From a bacterium (GTDB lineage Bacteria; Patescibacteriota; Minisyncoccia; UBA6257; GWB1-50-10), in assembly GCA_021811055.1 (NCBI GenBank), contig JAJZPU010000003.1, positions 1 to 33,399 of the forward strand: a stretch of 33,399 bases of DNA, in the 5' to 3' direction. The position numbers and the translations under genes are program-made. Below the pieces are notes generated by a model that was not told the origin of the DNA, did not search any database, and was given only the letters and a program-made list of their open reading frames with translations. Shown one piece after another: positions 7,069 to 9,627 of the stretch (position 1 is its first letter; the number at the start of each line of letters is the position of its first letter).

Positions 7069-7152
7069 GCCCGGGTGTCGGAACTGGTAGACGATCACGA
7101 CTCAAAATCGTGTGGCCGTAAGGCCGTGTGGGTTCAAGTCCCACCTCGGGCA
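7069..7152 (+). tRNA. tRNA-Leu(CAA)
   Basis: Acceptor GCCCGGG/CTCGGGC, anticodon arm CACGA-CTCAAAA-TCGTG, long variable arm TGGCCGTAAGGCCG, T loop TTCAAGT; CCA not encoded. Confidence 0.93.
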
Positions 7153-7158
7153 CGACAT

Positions 7159-8157
7159 ATGCCAGCACGCACTATTGCAATATTCAACCAAAAAGGAGGA
7201 GTGGGAAAAACGACCACCGCAATGAATCTGAGCGGGTATTGTGCTATGCTCGGAAAAAAGACGCTCCTTATCGATTTCGATTCACAGTTCAACGCAACGG
7301 TCGGACTCGGTGTCCGCCATGCTCCCGATGAAACGATCTATCACGCGCTTCTCGGGGGAAAGCATCCTTGGGAAGTCATCCGTCGCACATATCTTGCGGG
7401 TCTCGATCTCGCGCCCGCGACATCCGATCTCGCCGGCGCGCTCATCGAAATGGTGGAAGTTCCCCGCCGCGAATATTTGTTGAGAAAATTCGTGGAAGCG
7501 GTACGCGGCGAGTATGACTATATTTTCGTCGATCTGGGACCAAGTCTGAATCTGCTTACCATAAACGGACTGCTTGCGGCGGATGAGGTTATCATTCCCG
7601 TACAGTGCGAATATTACAGTCTCGAAGGGATCGCTCAGGTGCTCGAGACGCTCGATCTCATACGAAAGAATTTGAATCATCCGATAAAGATCGGAGGAGC
7701 GCTTCTTACGATGTATGACAAGCGTGAAAAACTTTCAAGGGAGATCGCGCGGGAAATCAGACGCCGTTTTCCGTATCATGTGTACGACATAGAAATTCCG
7801 CGGTCGGTGGCGCTTGCCGAAGCGCCGAGTTTTCAAAAACCAATCATGTTGTATGCGCCGCAGAGTCCCGGCGCGTTGGCGTATGAAGAGCTTGCAAAAG
7901 AGCTCATCGGGGAAATTCCACGGACGAAGAGCGAAATATCGTCGTTTTATAAAAAGACCTATCCCGAAGAATTGAAAGTGGATCTGCGGCCGTCACCCAC
8001 GCCCGTACGCGACGAAAAAGAATATGTGGTTGAATACGGCACATATCTTCCGGATGTGCCGGAGGAGGTTCCGCCGCCGCTTATCCTTATGATTCACGAA
8101 CACATGGATCCGGAGAGTGCCGGAGAAAACACCATATCTCCCGTCGGCGCGTTTTAA
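7159..8157 (+). CDS. parA: ParA/Soj-like partition ATPase
   Basis: MPARTIAIFNQKGGVGKTTTAMNL deviant Walker A. Start set to ATG 7159 because the tracked start at 7075 lies inside tRNA-Leu. Confidence 0.9.
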   Translation: MPARTIAIFNQKGGVGKTTTAMNLSGYCAMLGKKTLLIDFDSQFNATVGLGVRHAPDETIYHALLGGKHPWEVIRRTYLAGLDLAPATSDLAGALIEMVEVPRREYLLRKFVEAVRGEYDYIFVDLGPSLNLLTINGLLAADEVIIPVQCEYYSLEGIAQVLETLDLIRKNLNHPIKIGGALLTMYDKREKLSREIAREIRRRFPYHVYDIEIPRSVALAEAPSFQKPIMLYAPQSPGALAYEELAKELIGEIPRTKSEISSFYKKTYPEELKVDLRPSPTPVRDEKEYVVEYGTYLPDVPEEVPPPLILMIHEHMDPESAGENTISPVGAF

Positions 8158-8198: not shown

Positions 8199-8226
8199 TT
8201 GACGCCATGCGCACCTTTTGTATCAT
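8199..8226 (+). promoter_or_regulatory. Sigma70-like promoter (TTGACG-16-TATCAT) in the parA-parB spacer
   Basis: TTGACG 8199-8204, TATCAT 8221-8226. Confidence 0.5.
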
Positions 8227-8332
8227 TGGTAGTGGTTTCTATTATGTGCGCGAATCGGCTGCGGACTGAATGTCCGGCCGGCAGGAGGTTCGTATGTACG
8301 TTTGCGGACATGATATGGATCCGTGTACACGT

Positions 8333-8497
8333 TAAACGCTGAAACAGGGGACGCTTTTGTGCTATTTGCCGCATCACATATTTTCGTCATCTCGAGCTGC
8401 TCTTTATATTAACTCACACAAATATTAAACGCTCGAGGTTCGTAACGAAAAACAATTGCAGCAAAAGGCATGGAAAGGAAGCCTCTGTTTTAGTTTA
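8333..8497 (+). ncRNA. Candidate structured RNA (rod-like fold) between parA and parB
   Basis: Nested complementary segments: 8333-8337/8493-8497, 8340-8350/8482-8492, 8354-8362/8458-8467 (one bulge), 8381-8387/8445-8451, 8389-8397/8431-8439, 8403-8410/8421-8429. Strand inferred from the upstream promoter. Confidence 0.5.
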
Positions 8498-8643
8498 CAT
8501 ACCTGTTATCAACCATACATTTCTCTTCACTCGGGCGCTCCTGGACGCTAGCCCAAGTCATACCCTCGTTCGGAGAAATGTGTATTGAAGTTAAATTTAA
8601 TTATTTAGTTGTGGGTTGTTGGTCGTTGGTTTATTATTTACTT

Positions 8644-9627
8644 ATGGCACTAGGAAGAGGACTACAATCATTGATACCGCCGCAGGACGATGCGTCCCGC
8701 GACGAGCATGAAAATCATGAAGAAATAATAGAGGAAAAGGAACGCGTCGAGGAACATCTTCCCGTGTCCCGCTATCGGAACATACGCGAAGCGATACCGC
8801 AGCTTCGGGAAACATACGCGCCGGAACGCGAACATCCGAAACAGGAATCGATATTTCAGATTGAAGTTGAAAAAATAAAACCGAATCCGTATCAGCCACG
8901 GCGGGAATTCAACACGGAAGATTTGAAGGGACTTGCACAGTCGATAAAAGAATTCGGAGTGATCCAGCCGATCACCGTTTCAAAAGTGACGAAAGAGACC
9001 GATCTGGGCACCGATGTCGAATATCAGCTCATTGCGGGAGAGCGGCGTCTTAAGGCGGCAAAAATGGTCGGATTGGAACGGATTCCCGCGATCGTAAAAA
9101 AGATCGATGCGGGAAAGGCGAAACTCGAAATAGCGCTCATAGAGAACATTCAACGGAGTGATCTGAATGCGCTCGATTCCGCGAAGGCATACGCGCGTCT
9201 GCAGGATGAATTCGGTCTCACACAACGCGAAGTCGCGGCACGCGTGGGAAAAAGCAGGGAATCGATCGCAAACACCCTCCGGCTCCTCAACTTGCCCTCG
9301 GAGATACAGGACGCGCTTTTCAATAACACCATCAACGAATCACAGGCACGCACGCTTCTTTCCATCGGGAATTCCGAGGAACAGAAACGGGCGTTTTACA
9401 ATATTATTTCGGGAAAAACCACAATGAAGGAGTTGCGCGAAAAGAAGGAAAATCCCGCCGCTGATCCGGAAGGAAAATTTTGGGAGAAAAAGCTTGAGGA
9501 AAAATTTCAGGCTCCGGTGCAGATACTCAAAAAAGGAGGAAGGGGGAAGATCGTCATTCCGTTCTATTCCCGCGAAGAAATGCAGGCACTCGTCGACAAA
9601 ATGCTCGGCGAGGATACTCTTTCGTAA
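8644..9627 (+). CDS. parB: ParB/Spo0J-like partition protein
   Basis: MALGRGLQSLIPPQ start typical of ParB; NPYQPRREFN, LIAGERRLKAAKM, IENIQRSDLNALDSAKAY, HTH. ATG 8644 preferred over the tracked 8578. Confidence 0.9.
   Translation: MALGRGLQSLIPPQDDASRDEHENHEEIIEEKERVEEHLPVSRYRNIREAIPQLRETYAPEREHPKQESIFQIEVEKIKPNPYQPRREFNTEDLKGLAQSIKEFGVIQPITVSKVTKETDLGTDVEYQLIAGERRLKAAKMVGLERIPAIVKKIDAGKAKLEIALIENIQRSDLNALDSAKAYARLQDEFGLTQREVAARVGKSRESIANTLRLLNLPSEIQDALFNNTINESQARTLLSIGNSEEQKRAFYNIISGKTTMKELREKKENPAADPEGKFWEKKLEEKFQAPVQILKKGGRGKIVIPFYSREEMQALVDKMLGEDTLS

Follow-up and report, generated by a model that had tools for sequence, protein, structure and literature searches.

A structured noncoding RNA with palindromic loops, probably inserted between parA and parB in a bacterial family with small genomes

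The spacer between parA and parB in the window (the whole 33,399-nucleotide stretch analyzed, which is contig C20 of a 751-kb genome that is 98% complete) almost certainly encodes a functional structured RNA. It would add a family to the catalogued ncRNAs, from a lineage whose genomes are very reduced, and literature searches returned no description of it. Comparison of its homologs indicates that it is likely to be a stand-alone gene of one small-genome family, inserted into the parAB operon, whose structured product probably acts in trans. An earlier note on this DNA, whose label CPR fits the genome size, had placed in the spacer an ncRNA of unknown kind, expressed from a promoter of its own; conservation, covariation and a conserved promoter now strongly support that proposal.

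RESULTS

Locus, promoter and distribution of the RNA

The features of the locus, all on the plus strand, are as follows.

7159–8157, +, parA, upstream neighbor of the RNA (Pfam AAA_31, E 1.1e-55; CbiA/ParA)
8199–8226, +, RNA promoter TTGACG-16-TATCAT (10/12 consensus matches)
8232–8499, +, whole ncRNA, ~268 nt, with approximate ends placed from the promoter and terminator positions
8234–8322, +, P1, long 5′ hairpin (minimum-energy fold; arm-swap test)
8275–8280, +, palindromic hexamer CGGCCG at the P1 apex, proposed kissing loop (palindromic in 37/37 homologs, six hexamers)
8322–8331, +, P2, short hairpin CGU-GUAC-ACG with a self-complementary tetraloop (minimum-energy folds, homolog comparison)
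8338–8494, +, P3, long 3′ rod, the structure described in the earlier note (models R1 and R2 match; covariation)
8390–8439, +, top of P3, where the stem AUCUCGAGC/GCUCGAGGU encloses a large A/U-rich loop (invariant G and CTTT columns, 23 sequences)
8632–8637, +, TATTAT, probable -10 element of a separate parB promoter, 6 nt 5′ of the ATG (position conserved across spacers)
8644–9627, +, parB, downstream neighbor of the RNA (Pfam ParB_N, E 4.3e-30; HTH_ParB, E 4.4e-30)

The spacer measures 486 bp, as first read, from the end of the parA stop codon at 8157 to the parB ATG (MALGRGL) at 8644, and the TTGACG-16-TATCAT promoter is present where it had been placed, at 8199–8226. The promoter scan by itself gives promoter-like sites in numbers not above chance expectation, so the weight of this promoter comes from its conservation. 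A promoter with at least 9/12 matches, its -10 box 4–7 nt 5′ of the RNA, is present in most of the 37 homologs, and most of the remainder have recognizable RNA -10 boxes. In most copies, the promoter is of the TTGACA-like/TATNAT or TANNAT type with near-constant spacing to the RNA. Upstream of the RNA promoter, the spacers L041, L043 and L060 contain repeats of the type TCTCTAACGGG(G/A)TTGAC, some of them inverted, that reach up to the -35 box. On the other side of parA, a tRNA-Leu gene lies directly 5′ of the gene (7069–7153); among the relative loci scanned, several likewise have tRNA matches close to parA, and several parB loci of other families adjoin tRNA-like sequence.

The RNA occurs in 36 genomes of one bacterial family, as a single copy in each and beside parA or parB wherever the contig allows, and in one further genome, G021, at another site. 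The resulting set of 37 comprises 27 parA-parB spacers and 10 further loci and spans about 20 genera. Nucleotide searches with the spacer DNA itself found matches within the genus only; a ParB search recovers the same locus across the family. Of 29 readable family spacers, 27 (296–814 nt) have the same layout: a -35/-10 box is followed by a GGTTC-like start and a long hairpin whose apex resembles CCGGCCGG; GGACT and a short hairpin resembling ACGTATACGT come next, and then CTAAAACAGAGG ... TTTCGAGTTGCTCTTTA ... CTCGAAA ... CCTCTGTTTTAGTTT. The other two carry no RNA: in G021 the genes are 2 nt apart, and in G007, which has kept parAB and lacks the RNA, 67 nt apart. A covariance model of P2 and P3 (R1) matches 35/43 family genomes, with a single main match per genome; G011 and G024 hold divergent copies that were recognized by eye. 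In four near-complete genomes of the family (G018, G026, G027 and G035) no chromosomal ParB was detected, and these also lack the RNA. R1 was run against 245 genomes of the order and R2 against 387 of the class, and the matches came from the same family only, apart from weak ones with no parA or parB nearby; the large R2 search missed a known positive, G002, and distant homologs may escape it.

Three-hairpin architecture

Five nested stems had been proposed from the sequence, and all of them lie at 8334–8497 and form in the minimum-free-energy fold. The rod is real and corresponds to P3, but the transcript is larger than the structure first described: the conserved hairpins P1 and P2 precede the rod and had been overlooked, and with them the palindromic loops that are the most informative feature of the RNA. 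The stretch 8199–8497 folds at -99.1 kcal/mol, compared with -80.5 ± 4.9 kcal/mol for dinucleotide shuffles (z -3.79; 1/200 as good); its opposite strand gives z -2.85.

The P2 stem differs in sequence among homologs while its pairing is kept. The base of P3, CUGAAACAGGGG/CCUCUGUUUUAG, is followed by U-rich sequence and constitutes a terminator-like G+C stem. The P3 loop contains a conserved GYUCUUU motif, seen in the window as UGCUCUUUA at 8399–8407. A large asymmetric internal loop had also been drawn at 8363–8380/8452–8457. This is mostly closed in the best fold, where 8365–8373 are paired and about 7/5 nt are left, and nothing equivalent is seen in relatives, where P3 forms a rod with hardly any interruption.

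At the 3′ end of the RNA in six copies (L043, L049, L056, L059, L060 and L064), a second ACAGAGG strand sits just 5′ of CCUCUGUUUU. It could form a short local terminator hairpin with CCUCUGU, competing with the long-range base of P3.

Evidence that the structure is under selection

All 37 RNAs fold better than their shuffled versions (z < -2 in 37/37, median -5.4, 60 shuffles each). RNAalifold on plain MAFFT alignments recovered no more than the conserved stems, the arms having diverged too far; an arm-swap test and a model-fitted alignment were therefore used. When P1 arms were swapped between genera, the mean duplex energy changed from -36.7 kcal/mol for native pairs to -22.4 kcal/mol, and the middle arms of P3 (n = 27) changed likewise from -28.7 to -15.5 kcal/mol. 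In an alignment of 31 P3 sequences with 44 pairs, 92.3% of cells are paired, compared with 71.3% after shuffling and at most 51% after sliding, and 34/44 pairs show double-sided changes. P3 covaries strongly in this set, with a score of 0.600 against 0.211 for shuffled columns and at most 0.118 for slid ones. The alignment was made with R2, a model itself built on eight of the 31 sequences, and leans toward that model; the arm-swap test needs no alignment and is therefore an independent witness.

Given this covariation and the conservation across about 20 genera, it is scarcely credible that the spacer is non-functional and holds chance hairpins, a cluster of terminators or a mobile repeat. 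A dispersed repeat is indeed present in the same spacer (8512–8597), but the RNA part is single copy per genome.

That dispersed intergenic element is also found in the same genome at G000:C36:12111-12191 and G000:C43:13875-13934, and G031 and G014 carry at least 10 and 9 copies, respectively. It has a conserved core, CTCGGGCGCTCCGGGCCGCT..GGCCAAGTCTTACCCTCGTTC, and flanking arms that differ per copy and tend to be complementary within a copy (ATACATTTCTC/GAGAAATGTGTAT in the window). It was not detected in the orthologous G002 spacer and had no Rfam match.

Palindromic loops and a predicted homodimer

The apex of P1 is a palindromic hexamer in 37/37 copies, of six kinds: CGGCCG (25), UGGCCA (6), CGUACG (3), and CAGCUG, CUGCAG and GCUAGC (1 each). 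The inner tetramers are GGCC, GUAC, AGCU, UGCA and CUAG. On a ParA+ParB tree of 36 loci the hexamer changed 8 times, of which 4 changes fell in the inner tetramer; the chance that four random inner changes all stay palindromic is about 1.5e-5. Most P1 loops are CGGCCG and 4 inner-tetramer changes are counted, so the case for a dimer made from P1 by itself draws on few events. The inner bases are adjacent, so their pairing with each other within one molecule is impossible. The P2 loop is self-complementary, allowing G-U, in 25 of the 27 P2 hairpins of minimum-energy folds, compared with 14% expected, a by-eye reading that is indicative. The 17 changes of the P2 tetraloop on the tree are likewise indicative, since loops were assigned by eye where the automatic scan chose another hairpin.

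Self-complementary loops on P1 and P2 are the sequence signature of symmetric kissing-loop homodimers, as in OLE and GOLLD. Switching of a loop between palindromes is the reasoning applied by Kretsch et al. (2025), and on the same grounds we predict, with reasonable confidence, that the RNA forms a homodimer by way of P1, to which P2 may contribute. Where copies are GC-rich, part of the palindrome lies inside the P1 stem (loop CGGCC), and a kissing contact there would need opening.

The centers of P1 and P2 are also 6–12-bp DNA palindromes beside parB, and they might instead bind a symmetric protein as DNA, for example a partition or transcription factor, with RNA folding being secondary. We regard this as very unlikely: the sequences differ widely among genera, G-U pairs in the stems (L040, L041 and L059) break the symmetry of the DNA, the flanking arms covary as RNA, and the whole region is framed by a promoter and a terminator.

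Independence from parB and origin of the insertion

The RNA is almost always immediately 5′ of parB, which raises the alternative that it is the 5′ part of the parB mRNA, a cis-acting leader or attenuator in which the terminator-like base of P3 controls read-through. The alternative terminator hairpin offered by the second ACAGAGG in L043, L049, L056, L059, L060 and L064 would fit such a switch, but it is not general. A TANNNT box ends 6–12 nt before the parB ATG in 27/27 of the RNA-carrying spacers listed and in 0/2 of the RNA-less spacers; the background is A+T-rich, and it is the constancy of position that carries the weight. The copy in G021, moreover, adjoins ddl rather than parB. With a promoter of its own, a terminator-like end and a separate -10 box for parB, the RNA is unlikely to be a parB leader.

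Elsewhere in the order, the gap between parA and parB is -20 to 82 nt at loci where both genes were read, compared with 296–814 nt in the RNA-carrying spacers of the family. The simplest history would be that the RNA gene was inserted into an ancestrally continuous parAB operon, which would be a case of an RNA gene breaking up an operon that ranks among the most conserved in bacteria.

In the ParA+ParB tree, G021 branches at the base of the family or close to it. It carries a three-hairpin RNA at L102 1165-1378 (G021:C31), between ddl and an apparent convergent ABC transporter gene, with a fold z of -6.36, an R1 score of 36 bits (E 1.6e-7) and the P1 loop CGUACG, as in the other basal genomes, G016 and G008. 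The model match is weak, terminators alone reaching about 30 bits; the conserved GCUCUUU is absent, and the genome is 67% complete. Homology of this RNA to that of the parAB spacer is therefore suggestive rather than proven. Its position beside ddl may possibly be the ancestral location of the RNA, and its presence there while parAB is closed argues for action in trans. Copies of this type beside ddl were found in none of 30 other loci, and a search of 40 relatives with the L102 DNA gave a 32-base match only.

DISCUSSION

Proposed mode of action

In the scheme we propose, a sigma-70 RNA polymerase would start at about 8233 and stop after the base of P3. Two RNA molecules could then pair through their symmetric P1 loops, making a kissing contact of 6 bp to which P2 may add. 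Such a dimer would present two P3 rods, whose large loop with the conserved GYUCUUU is a likely contact for a protein or RNA partner.

A broader reading, toward which we lean slightly, joins this scheme to the history of the locus. The RNA would represent a new family of compact ncRNAs that assemble, from RNA alone, into homodimers or chains by palindromic kissing loops on P1 (and P2), with compensatory changes from loop to loop maintaining the contact. It would have moved into parAB from elsewhere in the chromosome and split the operon, whereby parB acquired a promoter of its own that is apparently leaderless. To our knowledge, natural self-assembling RNAs are few and mostly very large. If this reading is true, an RNA of ~270 nt that carries a two-loop palindromic signature and evolves fast in known genomes would offer a small, tractable system for studying RNA quaternary structure.

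Comparison with known RNAs

Searches with cmscan at permissive E-values gave no Rfam family match for the window, 17 homologous loci or L102, so the RNA is not a catalogued one. Two housekeeping identities were rejected because the genome has these RNAs elsewhere: tmRNA at G000:C31:23887-24209 (E 6.8e-53) and RNase P RNA at G000:C22:4662-5058 (E 5.3e-35).

A resemblance to 6S RNA (RF00013) had been suggested from the long hairpin with a central bubble. The two share a long rod-like hairpin and a strong promoter. A 6S-type regulator of RNA polymerase, in which P3 would mimic an open promoter, could draw on that rod, on the failure to detect 6S in the clade and on the abundance that the strong promoter suggests. 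We nevertheless consider it highly improbable. The 6S covariance model matched 0/30 relatives at E ≤ 10 (8/14 controls were detected) and neither the window nor the 17 homologous loci. The topology also differs: P1 takes up the 5′ end, which does not pair with the 3′ end, and two further conserved hairpins accompany the rod. The large bubble is not conserved, and with it the 6S resemblance fails.

The base of P3 resembles intrinsic terminators of the AAAACAGRGG...CCYCUGUUUU type, and one plain terminator elsewhere (L101) scores 31 bits with R1; in the present RNA, however, a conserved rod of ~130 nt separates the two strands.

At the level of the loop, a functional analogy can be drawn between P1 and the HIV-1 dimerization initiation site, with no relation by descent. 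In that site the apical loop carries a palindrome of six nucleotides with purines beside it (PMC7357161), and the P1 palindrome is purine-flanked in several copies (L040, AG-CGUACG-A; L102, AAG-CGUACG-A).

A close parallel is with OLE, GOLLD and ROOL, which are homo-oligomeric bacterial ncRNAs (Kretsch et al. 2025, PMC12286853). In that work, switching from GGCC to GAUC or AGCU supports a symmetric kissing loop that was also seen by cryo-EM in OLE. The present RNA is likewise a structured bacterial ncRNA whose symmetric loop switches between palindromes, GGCC to AGCU occurring in both, and its P1 loop changes only from one palindrome to another (37/37, six hexamers, 8 changes). The Rfam models of OLE, GOLLD and ROOL found no match in the window, the 17 loci or L102. 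The present RNA is much smaller (about 205–290 nt), has a simple three-hairpin layout and belongs to another lineage. As far as sequence can tell, it would work like the homo-oligomeric ncRNAs while standing outside their families.
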